Source of the DNA: Apostichopus japonicus
Taxonomy: Eukaryota > Echinodermata > Holothuroidea > Aspidochirotida > Stichopodidae
NCBI RefSeq assembly: GCF_037975245.1
Contig: NC_092562.1
Location: 8,597,001-8,661,000, forward strand
Direction: 5' to 3'
DNA length: 64,000 nt
Positions 43,384 to 63,170 of this stretch are shown piece by piece. The first letter of the stretch is position 1, and every line of letters starts with the position of its first letter. The position numbers and the translations under genes were made by a program. The notes beneath the pieces are model-generated. The model ran no database searches. It had not been told where the DNA came from and saw nothing but the letters and a program-made list of their open reading frames with translations.

Positions 43384-44233
43384 ATGGTTTGGGGTTATGA
43401 AATTTTGAGGGGCGGAAGTTGGCTGTGAGACGGAAATGCGGAGGGTCGAGTATATAGGTTTGTCTACGTAATACAGTAATGGCGCCGTTACGATGAAATA
43501 GAGGGAACTGGTCATTATTTATGCTTTCGCCATTAACGCATATCTTCACCAGAAGCAATACAATAGTCAGATATACCCGGTTAGTTGAGAAGCTATAAGA
43601 GCGCACATGCATGGTGGAAATTCTATGCCCAAGAATGGTTTTCGCAAACTTTAAGGGAAGTCATATAAACTTTAAGGGAAGTCATATAACCTCGGTTTCG
43701 CTCGATTTTGATTGTTTCCCACTCTACATGGTAAAATGGTTCGGTCGTTACCGTATAGTGACGAGGTTTCGACGAAATCTTGATCTTATCGTCAAAATAG
43801 CTTTCATTTCCACATAAAGAAATATTTGATACACTAGATTAGCTCGAATATTCTGGAAAAAATATACTAATTAAAATGAATTACAACTCACGGGTATATG
43901 TAGCCGCTGCTCACACAGTTGTTCCTACTTGTTGAAGAAATCCTAGCATGTTCATTATCTACAATCTTACGTTAGGCCCTTAACTAGATACATAGGGCAC
44001 AAAGCCTAACCGTCTATATCGTTTATCATGCTAATTTTGATTAGACCAAACTATTGGGGATACAGATGGCTTTAAAACAAATGTTTGAGCTCACAGGGGG
44101 CAGGTACTCCGAGTTGGAGGGGCACCAACAGTTTATGGAGGGGTACCGATATGCACTTTCAAGTCTTGTTCAGGTAAAACATTTTCTTGAACATTTTTAT
44201 GACAAATTAAGCCTATAAAAAGCGAAAAGGTGA

Positions 44234-44905
44234 AAAATTGCTGCAGTTTCAATCGAAAGGCAGTTTCATGCCTCTAGAATTCAACCCCTTTACTTACTTC
44301 AAAAGAGAGCCATTCGTTATATTTGTAATGCGGATTACCTCCAGCATACAGCACCTCTCTTTACTACTCTTAACGCTCTTAGTATCTATGATATAAATCG
44401 TTACTACGTTGGTATTTTTATTTTCAATTGGTTACATGATAATGCTCCGTCGACTTTTCGCAACTATTTTCAGTTACGTAACGATCCTTATCCCAACCGT
44501 GCGCCAAATCAATTGACTGTTCCTTACTTTAGACTTAGGTCTGCACAACTTGGTATTCGTTATGTCGGCGTAAAACTTTGGAATTCCCTCCCTACTACTA
44601 TTACTGGTTGTAAAACTCTGAACACCTTCAAAAAACGTCTTAAAGAGTATCTTATTTCAAACTATCATTGATTTTGTATTTCCTTTCTTTGCCATCTTTG
44701 TTCTGTTTTCTCTGTATACTTAAGCTTTCTTTCTATATTTTATATGTAAAGGGGTGTCAACGTAAATAAGCTCTGCAGAGCTTCTTGTTGGCACTCCTCA
44801 ATCTCTTGTTCTCTTGTACATTTACCCACGTCTATTGTCATAATTGCATACTTTAATGCGAGAGATTGAAATAAAGTCTTATGAATTGAATTGAATTGAA
44901 TTGAA
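44234..44905 (+). pseudogene. 5'-truncated LINE: C-terminal RT tail, 3' UTR and TGAAT tail
   Basis: Open from 44234 to TGA at 44669. From about 44273 it reads SRIQPLYLLQKRAIRYICNA, then YLQHTAPLFTTLNALSIYDI, then ...IRYVGVKLWNSLPTT... and FKKRLKEYLISNYH. The LLQKRAIR / HTAPLF / G-LWNSLP / FKK-LK--L pattern is the C-terminal region of CR1/L2/Jockey-like LINE ORF2 proteins. About 200 bp of 3' UTR with AATAAA (44870) and a (TGAAT)n tail (44881-44905) follow. The 5' end is truncated, as expected of target-primed retrotransposition. Confidence 0.82.
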
Positions 44906-45626
44906 AGGTACATAACAGTAATGAGACAACCAAGATACCTTTATTGATTTGTATATGAATATGATGCAGGTACTTGGAATATAAGTCAAAACCCACTCAT
45001 ATCACATCTGCAAAACGGTTTTGGATAAAACTTTTATCAGATTTGTCTCTGTATACTTTAAATGGACGTATCAGATTGTCCAAATGGAAACTACTACAGT
45101 TTATACATACTAGCAAAAATAAAAGTCAACATGGAAGAAGAATGAGATATCCTCTCTAAAAAATATTCAATCTCTCCCTGCCTGCCTCCCTCCCTCCACC
45201 CCCCCCCCCATTAAAATGGTTATATGCTTCTTCTTTCTTAAAGATATCGCTTAAAAATGATTGGCATGTTGTTTCTAACTTTTACAATGTACAATCTTTT
45301 ATTGAAGAATATTGAAGTTACAATGGAACAAGGCACCATCAAAGATGTAGGCATATCAACGTGTATTGCAGCATTTTCAGCAGTCTGCAACAGTACATTG
45401 TTGTCTACTTATATAAGTAGTCTCTTTCTTCTGTAATCAGGCGCGTAGCCCGGGGCGTAATTTTTTTTCCTAGGAGGGTTAGGGGCAATTATCATATGTA
45501 GGCGTATCCAGACCCTCACGCATGCGTGTTACTCGTAAAAAGTTTATAGCTAGTAGTCGTACATACAGTGTGTGCGACGCGATTCACGTTTTGCACACAT
45601 GCATACGTATATGCGTTCGTGCAACA

Positions 45627-45692
45627 ATGGAGACCTGTTCGACTGACAATCCTTGCGACAATCTTCAGCTGAAATCTTGCCCTAGATTAGAG
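45627..45692 (+). CDS. Candidate first exon inside the composite element
   Basis: ATG at 45627 opens 22 codons (METCSTDNPCDNLQLKSCPR then LE) ending at a donor GAG/GTAAAG in phase 0. It could splice to the phase-0 candidate exon at 47471. The frame also extends upstream. Very tentative. Confidence 0.2.
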
Positions 45693-45820
45693 GTAAAGTT
45701 ACTCGATACAATTGCATATAAAAAAGTAATCATCTCACCTAGATTTTAGAGACAATGTACGGATATCATCTGTCGTCATCAATGTGCGCGACGGACATTA
45801 ATTTAATGGTTTGGTTAATG

Positions 45821-45853
45821 CAGGGAGTTGTTATGGAACCATTACAACTCCCT
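45821..45853. mobile_element. Ultra-short near-palindromic insertion, 33-34 bp (site 1)
   Basis: CAGGGAGTTGTTATGG...TACAACTCCCT, nearly its own reverse complement, between GGTTAATG (45813-45820) and GGTTAATG (45854-45861). If a terminal G is counted as element, the duplication is 7 bp (GTTAATG). Confidence 0.75.
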
Positions 45854-46310
45854 GGTTAATGTTAACCTGCTAGCCTACATTACATGTATTTCTAGCTTCA
45901 CGGTAAACATTAATGTTACGGTAAACTTTAAAATTCTGTACATGATACTAATATAGTAGGCCTACATACAAACTAAAGCCTGCTCTATGAACTATCAGTC
46001 ATTCGGTACTTTATCTGCTTTGCAACATTTTTTAATTGTACAAGTGAAAAATAATTATGTGATGATATTGAGGGTGACGATTTGATCGCGCTTTAATTTG
46101 TATTTCTTTAACCCGCGTCCCATCACTTATTTTCTTCAATTCTCACTTGGTAGTCCTTGGCCAAAAAGCAAAGTGCATTACGTGTAAAACTGTACAGCGG
46201 AGATCTACTGCTTTGTACAGCGTACATACTGCCCACGTAAGCCCAGGCCCCCACACGTGTATTACAGCGATCGTATTGCAAGCCGTTTTAACATTTACCT
46301 CTCTATTCTA

Positions 46311-46726
46311 CTTAAGTAGAATTAATTCCACTTAAGTAGAATACAATTAAGCTTAAGTGAAATGAATTGCACTTAAGTAGAATTGCATTTTACTTAAGCT
46401 TAATTGTATTCCACTTAAGTGGAATTCATATTAGCTTAAGTTCAAACGGTCTTTGTCTACATCGTATTTTACTTAAGTAAAATACAATTCTACTTAAGTA
46501 AAATACAATTCTGCTTAAGTAAAATTCAATTCTACTTAAGTAAAATGCAATTCTGCTTAAATAAAATTCAATTCTACTTAAGTAAAATGCTATTCTACTT
46601 AAGCAAAATGGCTTTTCAATTTCACTTAAGCTAAATTGCATTTTACTTAAGTGAAATAGAATTACGCTTAAGTGAAATGTGATTGGTCAATCTATTTCAC
46701 TTAAGTAAAATGCAATTTAGCTTAAG
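46311..46726. repeat. CTTAAG palindrome array, left arm (18 sites, mainly 21-bp spacing)
   Basis: CTTAAG starts at 46311, 46331, 46352, 46372, 46393, 46414, 46435, 46472, 46493, 46514, 46535, 46577, 46598, 46625, 46646, 46667, 46700 and 46721. A CTTAAA variant at 46556 fills one gap. Most steps are 20-21 bp. Typical unit: CTTAAGTAAAATNCAATT plus 3 nt. Many sites extend to longer palindromes (TTTACTTAAGTAAA, TCTACTTAAGTAGA, TTCACTTAAGTGAA). Confidence 0.97.
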
Positions 46727-46847
46727 TAAAATGTGATTGGTCAATCAGTATATGCTACTCATTGCGTCACTGTACTTGCCGCGAGGTCCGACTCTGTATA
46801 CTATTTTAGGTACCTCACCACGTGTTCATCCGCTCAATAGGTTTACC

Positions 46848-46872
46848 GAGGGAGTTGTTATAACAATTCCCT
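46848..46872. mobile_element. Ultra-short near-palindromic insertion, 25 bp (site 2)
   Basis: GAGGGAGTTGTTATAAC...ATTCCCT lies between perfect GGTTTACC repeats at 46840-46847 and 46873-46880. Same core as sites 1 and 3. Confidence 0.75.
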
Positions 46873-47058
46873 GGTTTACCATTGTCAGAAAAGAGGTAAA
46901 AGTACCTAACGTAAAGCTTCCTTAAGCATGTTATCATTTACTGTCATCGTTTTTTCTACCTTTATATGAAAGAGCATAATTTTAAGTACAGATGGTGTGA
47001 AAATAGGGAGGATCGAAGGTGATATAAACCATTTAAAAAATCTTTGGTTAAATATTGA

Positions 47059-47265
47059 TATTACTCCGAACGAGCAAATGGAAGGGTTCAGTGTGATAAA
47101 CTTGCTCCTCTTCTAGCTCATAATCTAAACGGTCATGATATGGAAGTTTGCAAGTGCCATGGTAGGCCACTAGAACACAGATATCATGTGGTGGGTAGGA
47201 TATACCAGATGAAAACTTCTATCTATGCTTTGGCAGGTCTTGAAAGTGATGAGTTTAGTGTGTAA
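47059..47265 (+). CDS. Open coding-like segment of an unrecognised family, inside the composite
   Basis: 68 sense codons between TGA (47056) and TAA (47263). It reads YYSERANGRVQCDKLAPLLA, then HNLNGHDMEVCKCHGRPLE, then HRYHVVGRIYQMKTSIYALA and GLESDEFSV. Conservation with the split remnant at 25586-26297 supports real coding ancestry. A CxC and a CxHG cluster (CKCHG) are visible. There is no ATG near the start, and a donor-like GTAAGT overlaps the end (47262), so it may be an internal exon. Confidence 0.4.
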   Translation, partial: YYSERANGRVQCDKLAPLLAHNLNGHDMEVCKCHGRPLEHRYHVVGRIYQMKTSIYALAGLESDEFSV

Positions 47266-47470
47266 GTCAATGGAACAATTAATTGTGATGCGAGACCTAT
47301 AGAGTTACGTTCAAGACGTACTAGTTACGTAAGCATTTGCGGCCATTCCCCCATTATGTGATACTTATCCAGCTTTCGTTGTGTATATACGAACATAACA
47401 CCATACTTAGCAAATGAAGCAAAGCTTTGTTTATCACTGAGTCTGAACGTTAGACATTTGGTAAATGCAG

Positions 47471-47647
47471 CCAGCCAATAAATCGTTGCAAACTGTTGCT
47501 GATGCAGTTGGAAAAGCACTTTTGAGGGCAAGGGAGCGACTACAACAAGACATACCACCAATCAGTGGTACTAGTAGTAGAAGTATCACAAGGCATGGTA
47601 CCATGCATGTAAACATTGCCCCCAGACCAACCACTTCTCCGCACGAG
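47471..47647 (+). CDS. Candidate internal exon inside the composite element
   Basis: Acceptor AAATGCAG before 47471 and donor GAG/GTAAAT after 47647, 59 codons, phase 0 at both ends. Reads PANKSLQTVADAVGKALLRA, then RERLQQDIPPISGTSSRSIT, then a tail ending TTSPHE. The helical, charged start looks protein-like. No family was recognised. Confidence 0.3.
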
Positions 47648-47685
47648 GTAAATGTTATAACGGCTTGCCATATCCTTCAATTCCA

Positions 47686-48168
47686 CTTCAGCTAAATTGT
47701 ATTTTACATAAGTAGAATTGAATTTTACTTAAGTAAAATGCAATTGTATTCTACTTAAGTAAAATACAATTCTACTTAAGTAGAATACAATTTAGCTTAA
47801 GTTAAATTCAATTTCACTTAAGCTTAATTGTATTCTACTTAAGTAAAATACAATTTTACTTAAGTAAAATGCATTTAGCTTAAGTGAAAAAGAATGACAA
47901 TTTTACTTAAGCTAAATTGTATTCTACTTAAGTAGAATTGTATTTTACTTAAGTAGAATAAAATTAAGCTTAAGTGAAATTGAATTTAACTTAAGCTTAA
48001 AAGAAAGCGGTAATTTTACTTAAGTGGAATACAATTAAACTTAAGTAAAATGCAATTCTACTTAAGTGCAATTCATTTTACTTAAGCTTAATTGTATTCT
48101 ACTTAAGTGCAATTCATTTCACTTAAGCTTAATTGTATTCTACTTAAGTGGAATTAATTCTACTTAAG
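47686..48168. repeat. CTTAAG palindrome array, right arm (21 sites, mainly 21-bp spacing)
   Basis: CTTAAG starts at 47728, 47754, 47775, 47796, 47817, 47838, 47859, 47879, 47906, 47927, 47948, 47969, 47990, 48019, 48040, 48061, 48081, 48102, 48122, 48143 and 48163. Decayed sites CTTCAG (47686) and CATAAG (47707) lie at the inner end. The outer part is the reverse complement of the outer left arm, including the 20/21-bp step pattern. Confidence 0.97.
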
Positions 48169-48926
48169 TAGAATAGAGAGGTAAATGTTAAAACGGCTTG
48201 CCATACGATCGATGAGTAACGCGTGTCTATGAGTAACACGCATGCGCGAGGGTTAGGATACGCCTATATATGATAATTACCCCTAACCCTCCTAGGAAAA
48301 AAAATTACGCGCCCGGGAAGGGGGCGAAGGGGGCAGCCGCCCCCCCCCCTGAGCATATATTTTTAATTTGTTTTTTAATGTTTTTATGATATCGCCAGTA
48401 TTTCCAAAGAGAAAATGCTAAGATGCAACTTACAAGGCCTGGGAAGTGCCATTTCCAGCGATCTGGGAGGCATTTTTAGCCAAACTACTCGTGTACGCTT
48501 CGCGCCAACTATGGTGGCGCTCCGCTAAGATGGTTTGCAATGCATGCCGAATCTACAGTTTCGCCCCTCCCTTGGCAAATTCCTGGCTACGCGCCTGTCT
48601 GTAACATTATATTGTTTTCATTTTGTAAGTCAACGCCTTCGGTGATGCATGGTGATTTACATGTGCATATTTTAAGTTGTCATGACACACAGTTTATCAC
48701 TACATAACCTAAGAAACTTAAGGATGCATACATTTACCACAAACATTTCATCTTCATCTTCATCATCATTTGCTTGGAAGGTACAACAAGGACCTTTTCG
48801 TGTTGCATTTTATGCTTCTTATTCAGTAATTTCATTATTAGCAGTTAGGCCAATGTAAGCAAACACAAAAGCAGACTGTCATCTCATTCCCAACAAAGTT
48901 TGTTATCACCGTTACTTGAGTTGAAT

Positions 48927-49407
48927 CAGCGACGTAGCCAGGAATTGGCGGGGGGGGGGGGGGGCAAATTTTGCAATTGATTTGGGGGAGGGGTCTAAGG
49001 GGAGGGGGTGTCGATTGCTAGCTTAGCTTCATAACATGCTGTTCGTGCGACAACTTATGACGAATCATAGAAAGGATTAGAACGCTCGTTGTCGTCGTCG
49101 TTGTGCATACGGTTCGTGACACTCCATCTAATGCTGTTAGGTAGGATATATGTATTTTATTACGCATTGGCCAACAGTAGGCTTGTAATAGGCTATAGGC
49201 TAAATTTAGCTAATTGCATCTGCCAAACTAAGTAGTTGAATCAGTAGGCCTGAATGTTACTACGAATATAATGGGGTTAACGGAGCTGGCGAGTATCAAG
49301 ATCAAAAGAGCACTGACAAAATGCCCTGCAAAAAAAACAACAACAGTTTTTAACAATTTTTCGACATTGAAAGGGGCGGGGAGTTGCTCCCCCTGGTTAC
49401 GTCCCTG
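48927..49407. mobile_element. hAT-like MITE, 481 bp
   Basis: Ends are CAGCGACGTAGCCAGG and CCTGGTTACGTCCCTG. Flanks are AGTTGAAT (48919-48926) and GGTTGAAT (49408-49415), an 8-bp duplication with one mismatch. G runs near the left end. It lacks the common cassette and any transposase. Confidence 0.75.
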
Positions 49408-49415
49408 GGTTGAAT

Positions 49416-50720
49416 TCTACTTTACTATCCTAGTAATTGGATATCGCCTATACCTAGTATACTACTTTAGCTTTAATATAACGATAACTTTATAGTTATA
49501 GTAGTAGACAGTACTAGTTAACTTATAGCTAGGCTATAGGCAAGCCATATATGCCATCGCCCATGTGCGTCACTGCCAGTGAAATACCAAAGGACAGACG
49601 CAGTCTAGCGGTAATCTAATACTGATCGATGAAAACTTCGGTTACATCATACGAGTTGTATATTTATATAACCTCATCTCAGTTTCTTGGAAGCTTGAAA
49701 ACGTCGTTAATAGCGCTGTATGATAATGCTTCCGTAGATAGGTACTGTTATGTGTTGTTACGTCCTATCAGTACAGATCGAGCATGCTGAGTAACGTACT
49801 GTTTCGTGGAAGGTTTTTTTTAATAGAAACATGACAAAGATTCTGTTTCGTTTTCCATTCCGAACACGTATACTCTTAGAAGTGACTCACAATTCTGTGT
49901 ATTTATTATTTTTATTTTTAGGACTTCTTACAATATGGAAAGTTAATTGGGCAATACATTGCCTAACGTTAAGATTCTACGTAAAATAGCAGTGTAGGTT
50001 GATGCTTTTGTGTGAGCTCTTACCACAAACATAATATGGAACGCAAAACGTTTTCACATCACAACATCAATTTATATCATCACAAGATGTATTTTGACAT
50101 CACTATTCACAACTTCAATTGATATCGTCAAAACACGCATTGTAACATCACAGCGTATATTTATTTTCGTCATATATGATAAATCTGCCATATCAAGACG
50201 TATACCCGTATGTTTGCAACGTCACAGCATAAATTGTTAACGTCACAGGAGATGTTTGTTATTACTCATTAATTTTACATCGTCACACAAGACATTTATT
50301 AATTTCACCACTACTATATTTGCCATGGTCACTGTAACAGTTGTGGCATAGTCATATAATATGTTCCGTTTTAGCGTTCCATACTATACTGGGTTTTTTC
50401 AATATCTCTGCCATGCCAATAACAACGCGCGTAAATGCAATTATACCTACATCATATTGGAGACTGGTAACCTAAATTTTACTACTGCACAACTTCTCAT
50501 CACAACCAGAGTTAACATTGTCACATACAGAGTTTACATCACATATATAGTCACATAATATTTACCGCTAATGCGTCCATATACTGCTATCGGTACATTG
50601 ACAGATAGCCTATACAATTGAACAGCTATGCAGACACAAAAAGTCCGATGTTTAACTTTTGTGTTGACTTAAATATAAACCTCCTTAATTAAGGAATCAC
50701 TACTACACCAGGGACTTTTT
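49416..50720. other. Intergenic stretch with a degenerate CATCACA-rich region
   Basis: About 50040-50340 shows irregular repetition of CATCACA, GTCACA and TTTATTAACATC-like phrases at roughly 25-30-bp intervals. This suggests an old minisatellite. Otherwise nothing was recognised. Confidence 0.35.
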
Positions 50721-62770: not shown

Positions 62771-63170
62771 GGAGTGAAGACTCGCGCAAAAAGAAACGTC
62801 TGATGCCGGTAATCTGACCTAGTTTCGAATGAGATGTAACAGAAGTGTTAGACACCACCATCGATCCCAGAAAATACAAACACAGCTTGCTACCGTCGGT
62901 AATTAGACACTAGTGTACAGTCAATACATGCAGCAACGGCCAATACCCACAACACAGTGTACATAGCAGCGATGGACATCTCAGCAGGGAGTTGTTATGG
63001 AACTCCCTGATCTCAGGTCCAAATAAAATATAACAAGGAATCACGTTTCATTACTCTCTGCATTTTGTAGCGACAAGAAGAAAACTTCACTTGCAAGCAA
63101 CTATTTTTCAGAGGGCGGCACGCAGTTTAGGGCGAGTCTTCAATGCCTTTAAGCGTTCCGATCTTTAAAG
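62771..63170 (+). repeat. Dispersed repeat, copy 2
   Basis: Matches 6252-6640 in order and orientation. It is interrupted by the ultra-short insertion at 62985-63008. Confidence 0.85.
62985..63008. mobile_element. Ultra-short near-palindromic insertion, 24-25 bp (site 3)
   Basis: CAGGGAGTTGTTATGG followed by AACTCCCT(G), between CATCTCAG (62977-62984) and GATCTCAG (63009-63016). Counting the last G as element gives a perfect 7-bp duplication, ATCTCAG. The homologous sequence at 6474-6488 has a single GGACATCTCAGGTCC without the insert. Confidence 0.85.

Follow-up and report, generated by a model that had tools for sequence, protein, structure and literature searches.

Eukaryotic IS3EU transposons are described, in the part of the source available, as having TA..TA termini and a target-site duplication usually of 6 bp (PMC10045372). 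In the accessible portion of a report that covers rust fungi, IS3EU families have TAYGG..CCRTA ends with terminal inverted repeats longer than 30 bp, and in TET-bearing fungal families an alpha-kinase gene runs opposite to the transposase (PMC12730594). The same portion mentions no subterminal palindrome array, the words "subterminal" and "tandem repeat" each occurring 0 times, and the available text on Styx, which has an IS3EU-like coding sequence, likewise mentions no palindrome array ("subterminal" 0 times, "tandem repeat" 1 time; PMC10853768). In these partial sources, which give termini and duplications and no internal sites, end recognition by eukaryotic integrase-type (IS3EU) transposases looks little studied.

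Here we analyzed a 64,000-nucleotide stretch of the sea cucumber Apostichopus japonicus (C2:8597001-8661000, hereafter the window, meaning that stretch at its full length) against a scanned genome of 671.6 Mb in 35 contigs. On balance, the data favor a model where the window harbors a non-autonomous IS3EU-like transposon with bipartite ends, each combining a terminal repeat with an array of CTTAAG palindromes that would offer successive dimer sites, the transposase being the likeliest protein to bind them. Judged by its sequence, the segment 46274-48205 is a cut-and-paste DNA transposon with inverted ends TATGGCAAGCCG... and a 6-bp target duplication CGATCG, present on the + strand at 46268..46273 on the left and at 48206..48211 on the right. 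Copy alignments, ends and an uninterrupted site define it as a complete non-autonomous IS3EU-like element of 1,932 bp (46274..48205, no strand assigned). The left 28-bp terminal inverted repeat (46274..46301, + strand, TATTGCAAGCCG...) reads TATTG and is thereby one base off the family TATGG, and the right one (48178..48205, - strand, TATGGCAAGCCGTTTTAACATTTACCTC) matches the family end, of which 306 exact 28-bp copies of the TATGG..CCATA type are found genome-wide. At one position of the terminal repeat, 39 of 345 end matches have a base other than T.

A genome-wide search with the core as query returned at least 40 large matches at 89-100% identity, window copy included, 38 of which are full length. 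We retrieved 20 other copies for boundary alignment: their main match to the window begins at 46266-46274 in 19 of the 20 (the exception, L031, at 46312) and finishes at 48205-48211 in all 20. The element boundaries are confirmed by an uninterrupted paralogous site at C3:10665540-10665760, as it carries the duplicated target once, as CTATCG, in place of the two CGATCG that flank the window element. Of 37 original end pairings, five that cross nested or multiple ends, all lacking an exact 6-bp duplication, were set aside, as was L049, whose flanks are identical to those of L043; both alternative L029 pairings are counted, and exact 6-bp duplications flank 25 of the resulting 31. The six pairings that have no exact duplication are L018 (4 mismatches), both of L029, L046 and L047 (1 each) and L048 (2). 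The duplications are GC-rich (76% GC, pattern nGSSCn), and a link to piggyBac through the TTAA within the palindrome is ruled out because they are GC-rich and 6 bp long. The DNA-transposon identity suggested by the preliminary description is thus borne out by full-element alignment, which yielded boundaries, inverted ends and a 6-bp duplication. Family members are also found close together or nested: at C1:11141000-11147900 seven exact ends and several arrays lie within 6.5 kb in apparently nested elements, and at L024:1231-5033 an element sits inside another of the same family, both with exact 6-bp duplications. L043 (C3:7723693) and L049 (C3:7766380), 43 kb apart, share flanks and duplication, and their locus was therefore probably duplicated after insertion.

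The window element is itself inserted in another non-autonomous element of about 0.9 kb, covering about 45455-46273 and 48206-48317, which has terminal repeats of about 83 bp and at least 20 further near-full copies at 84-99% identity, including a C3 copy that is 99% identical and free of the insertion. The outer inverted repeat 45449-45537/48228-48317 was considered as the array element's own ends and rejected, since this host element, to which it belongs, exists elsewhere without the insertion. The earlier view of one composite gives way to one element and an unrelated outer host element, and the coding-like core of about 0.95 kb is partly a reading-frame remnant described below. A tiny hairpin repeat, GGGAGTTGTTAT...ATAACAAYTCCC, recurs at 45823-45852, 46850-46871 and 62987-62998 of the window and also in L058 (5 matches with at most one mismatch, 0.4 expected). 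A search of Rfam returned nothing at gathering score within 44000-50000 of the window.

The two arrays comprise 18 exact CTTAAG sites on the left (46311..46726) and 21 on the right (47728..48168), neither assigned a strand, and all 39 sites listed in the preliminary description were recovered at their positions; one further CTTAAG lies in the core, at 46921. The window as a whole contains 47, against a shuffle mean of 18.7 and a highest value of 31 in 100 shuffles. Of the 37 gaps between neighboring sites in the two arms, 30 measure 20-21 bp, upholding the spacing first noted, and an equal number of randomly placed sites gives on average 1.4 such gaps and at most 8 in 20,000 trials. The outer parts of the arrays are indeed reverse complements (146 nt, 91% complementary). 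Over eight sequences, 234 of 297 gaps shorter than 100 bp are 20-21 bp and 63 differ, with gaps of 27, 29, 33 and 36 bp recurring, so that strict phasing on one helix face is broken in places. Each end has 17-23 CTTAAG in the window, C1 and C16 copies and 13-35 in the other elements read; array length and unit order vary between ends and between copies, and Tandem Repeats Finder reports 42- and 84-bp higher-order repeats in the arrays. The arrays are subterminal and tied to element ends: of the 86 exact 28-bp ends listed for C1-C7, 77 have their first CTTAAG at a distance of exactly 9 bp on the inner side and 9 do not. For the converse, whether every array has an end, the check covers the loci examined, and two other array places from the genome triplet scan (L001 and L002) have a recognizable end. 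A simple satellite independent of element ends, one of the outcomes that would have dissolved the initial interpretation, is rejected on this fixed offset.

Genome-wide, CTTAAG triplets at 20-22 bp number 3,468 per strand, a figure that does not represent as many independent events because matches overlap and many are copies of one family, and those at 15-17 bp number 10. The composition-matched palindrome GTTAAC forms 88 triplets at 20-22 bp; a GAATTC control gives 595, and is not independent because GAATTC is also present inside the CTTAAG arrays. These counts bear on the idea that the array works through DNA shape, with intrinsic bending or cruciform extrusion joining the ends in the absence of a sequence-specific protein. 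A/T tracts do recur in the units by eye, every unit is near-palindromic and the arms are inverted repeats, yet a shape-based mechanism would not require exact CTTAAG over other palindromes, and GTTAAC triplets are about 40 times rarer; we regard this explanation as very improbable.

The shared unit, derived from 62 and 51 distinct units in two groups, is ATTnnRCTTAAGYnnAAT, an 18-bp near-palindrome. Units were picked by CTTAAG, which is fixed by that choice; ATT and AAT are not, and these flanks carry 1.4-1.9 bits in both groups and are kept, the two inner positions of each half and a short spacer being variable. The original observation that flanking bases change symmetrically, as if to preserve a palindrome, fared less well: relative to shuffled partners, symmetry does not exceed chance in any of eight single sequences and is marginal when pooled. 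The window has 8 symmetric units of 40, against 6.1 expected (p=0.25), and the seven other sequences give p values of 0.22-0.77; pooling 106 non-redundant but related units gives 22 symmetric against 15.6 expected (p=0.049) or, counted by letters, 272 matching against 255.4 expected (p=0.027). The halves of the unit covary at most weakly, and compensatory changes are not clearly supported. The two halves obey one rule largely independently, which fits a dimer reading two half-sites rather than a compensating palindrome.

The Pfam profile rva_4 (PF24764), which we take to represent the IS3EU transposase, has at least 143 matches in the genome among 150 candidates scored. One match, C1:12277550-12278077, sits 5.5 kb from an exact end and belongs to a complete element of 22.7 kb, C1:12260970-12283636, assembled by reading outward in separate pieces; the C1 copy alone was read end to end. 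Its ends match those of the family, the right one with one mismatch, it is flanked by CGGCCG on both sides as a 6-bp duplication, and its arrays hold 21 CTTAAG on the transposase side and 17 on the other. Pfam searches of six of its frames gave rva_4 (E=3e-75 and 1.4e-8), HTH_7 (E=3e-5, scoring 24.5 bits where the cut-off is 23.8) and HECT (E=1.4e-11), and two of the six gave nothing above the Pfam cut-off. The translated exons of the transposase contain WHMDG, SDQGGEN and IERLW, and the HECT-type frame (C1:12273896-12274981; L053:2397-3482) lies on the opposite strand. A copy on C16, with a different outer flank, shares 98% identity with the C1 copy across 2.1 kb of transposase, has 23 CTTAAG at the one end read, and is without some 1.5 kb of the C1 copy that represents a separate high-copy repeat. 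In the C16 copy a 161-bp minisatellite (L052:1-1633, L054:2594-3851) separates the two genes; it is also found in the C1 copy, with 97-98% matches between copies. The TA..TA character of the ends and the 6-bp duplications are shared with IS3EU, whose transposases are IS3/IS481-like DDE enzymes lacking an HHCC zinc motif; along with the integrase-type transposase of the C1 element, which may be of that kind, they would place the family in or next to that superfamily. The second gene differs, being HECT-type, in an element of 22.7 kb, rather than the alpha-kinase given for TET-bearing fungal families in the available text. Our searches of the open-licence PMC literature found no paper on IS3EU together with HECT and nothing relevant on CTTAAG arrays with terminal inverted repeats, and on that partial literature we take the array to be a new feature on a known kind of transposon.

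The arms of the window element correspond to the two ends of the 22.7-kb element: the left arm (46274-46735) matches its HECT-side end (C1:12260970-12261388, 87%), and the right arm (47691-48205) its transposase-side end (C1:12283168-12283636, 89%). The core (46735..47690, + strand) matches it in part, with 46735-46802 aligning to C1:12261388-12261452 at 91% and 47302-47646 to C1:12261482-12261825 at 86%; for 46803-47301, nothing matching was found in the four searched pieces of the C1 element. The core retains a reading-frame remnant, MQPANKSLQTVADAVGKALLRARERL... (47465..47656, + strand), whose counterpart lies beside the HECT-side end at C1:12261641-12261835 (76% of 66 aligned positions identical, E=5e-26), and the frame behind it may be the first exon of the second gene of the 22.7-kb element. 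Peptides from non-autonomous cores gave a mixed result, with matches to the C1 element for two of the five tested and none for the other three. Most likely, then, the window element is an internal-deletion derivative of a relative of the 22.7-kb element. An additional, inward-facing copy of the terminal repeat, TATGGCAAGCCGTTATAACATTTACCTC, lies at 47645..47672 on the - strand with no array inside it, and is present in other family copies too.

The arrays and their spacing are not confined to the window, as the initial interpretation had to presume: both recur in other copies and in another lineage. Six elements (L041, L042, L044-L047) have the same 28-bp end, one L041 end with one change, and 33-44 CTTAAG each (L041 by its 6-bp-duplication pairing), and their cores do not align with the window core. 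For the two cores tested, L042 and L045, there is no DNA alignment to the C1 element; at the protein level, an L042 core frame shares 34% identity over 56 aa (E=1e-7) with a C1 frame upstream of the helix-turn-helix. The alignments thus delineate a second, deeply diverged lineage that keeps the 28-bp end, CTTAAG and the 21-bp step; one arm of each lineage was also seen in L048, part of the C1:11141000-11147900 cluster. Set against the L042 lineage, the window and C16 arrays show differences at 0/114, 5/114 and 0/131 aligned CTTAAG positions and at 93/282, 108/279 and 107/319 neighboring unit positions (33-39%), a contrast overstated because the shared motif anchors the aligner. Orthologous arms align securely, and each of the seven comparisons made between them shows a lower rate of differences in CTTAAG than in the rest, one of them with p<0.05 (0.035); in 20 young copies the differences are nearly equal, 0.47% for CTTAAG and 0.72% for the rest. 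Upstream of an older relative, C16:30146318, two CTTAAG 21 bp apart are left in a decayed stretch in which no end was recognized. The rva_4 element L058, whose own ends were not found, shows no CTTAAG in the 4.2 kb read upstream of C3:14228558, indicating that the superfamily in general does not need the motif.

The array could also be a passive minisatellite, in which a 21-bp unit expanded by slippage or gene conversion, hitch-hiked with the transposon and kept CTTAAG uniform through homogenization. The varying array length and unit order and the higher-order repeats agree with this, as does the smaller divergence of the arrays between window and C1 element (12/373 and 9/416 positions, gaps excluded) than of the homologous core (28/332), and tandem repeats within the arms of foldback transposons are known (PMC4079207, from the part available). 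Homogenization would however even out whole units, in which we instead find the inner positions and spacer varying while CTTAAG and ATT/AAT stay; moreover, the step is still 20-21 bp for the most part in lineages that differ by a third in unit sequence, and the array starts at its fixed offset in most listed ends. We consider a passive origin distinctly unlikely.

A further possibility is that the array is a regulatory or host-factor platform, through which a host transcription factor or the HECT-side protein would control transcription or silencing rather than end recognition. In the 22.7-kb element the coding part lies between the two arrays, and the HECT-side array is some 250 bp away from the MQPAN frame; such a dense set of sites might form a strong enhancer, and CACTTAA/TTAAGTG resembles NK-type homeodomain sites. 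Against this, both arrays persist, in at least two lineages, in elements stripped of nearly all their coding sequence, an observation that is not decisive because deletion derivatives may keep their ends passively, and regulation has no need of a fixed first-site offset. This alternative appears unlikely, if somewhat less so than a passive minisatellite.

In the bipartite-end model that we favor, the 28-bp end would be the site of cutting and joining by an IS3EU-type transposase, giving 6-bp duplications in GC-rich sites, and the window element is presumably mobilized by the rva_4 integrase-type transposase of its 22.7-kb relative. From 9 bp further in, the second part of the end would be the row of units, mostly every 21 bp or two helical turns, each unit taking up a single symmetric dimer of a DNA-binding protein that the element itself encodes. 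The simplest and most likely candidate for this binder is the helix-turn-helix part of the transposase, whose putative DNA-binding region is the frame C1:12280092-12280391. A row of dimers on one helix face may then mark the ends and load many transposase molecules, and the abundance of sites at each end could improve specificity as well as helping to hold together ends 22.7 kb apart; binding to the array, the identity of the binder, cooperative assembly and a need for the array in transposition are all conjectural parts of this model. A bolder version, which we put forward tentatively and judge more doubtful than not, has the array as a templated platform for about 20 transposase dimers per end, assembling in a filament- or iteron-like manner and pairing ends across 22.7 kb. 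If true, it would amount to an end type undescribed for integrase-type DDE transposons in the literature consulted and kept through deep divergence. Together, the 28-bp end and the palindrome repeated every two helical turns would constitute a candidate recognition code readable from sequence, one that a transposase-bearing element contains and that non-autonomous elements in two lineages have retained. The family also provides an instance of a DNA transposon with a putative HECT-type gene opposite in orientation to its transposase.

Several protein sites inside each end aid end recognition in Sleeping Beauty (IR/DR), maize Ac and En/Spm, which belong to other superfamilies and have fewer or irregularly spaced sites. 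Plasmid iterons are rows of sites of about 20 bp lying about two helical turns apart, at replication origins and not transposon ends, and their likeness to the CTTAAG arrays would be an analogy in spacing only. Foldback-type elements, among them Drosophila FB (subrepeats of 10-31 bp) and sea urchin TU (15 bp), have transposases of other classes, MULE- or P-type. Inverted arms of tandem subrepeats, characteristic of such elements, are also seen here (462 bp and 18 units in the left arm, 515 bp and 21 units in the right), and a foldback assignment is rejected by transposase class, that of the 22.7-kb relative being rva_4 integrase-type. In the open-licence PMC literature we found no paper treating foldback elements together with sea urchin. 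The foldback-type element Tetris has subrepeats of about 220 bp in the text available, as opposed to the 21-bp step here (PMC4079207).

A functional parallel may be Galileo, of the P superfamily in Drosophila, for which the accessible text describes long inverted ends and internal tandem repeats with several sites for the DNA-binding domain, proposes a higher-order synaptic complex and also mentions the secondary sites of Sleeping Beauty (PMC3688188). Galileo differs in having a P-type transposase with a THAP domain rather than an rva_4 integrase-type enzyme, and its three mapped sites, which lie some 70, 561 and 701 bp in from the end, contrast with about twenty palindromes on a 21-bp step (PMC3688188, same portion). 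As suggested there for Galileo, the very large 22.7-kb transposon may offset its length with many binding sites (PMC3688188).
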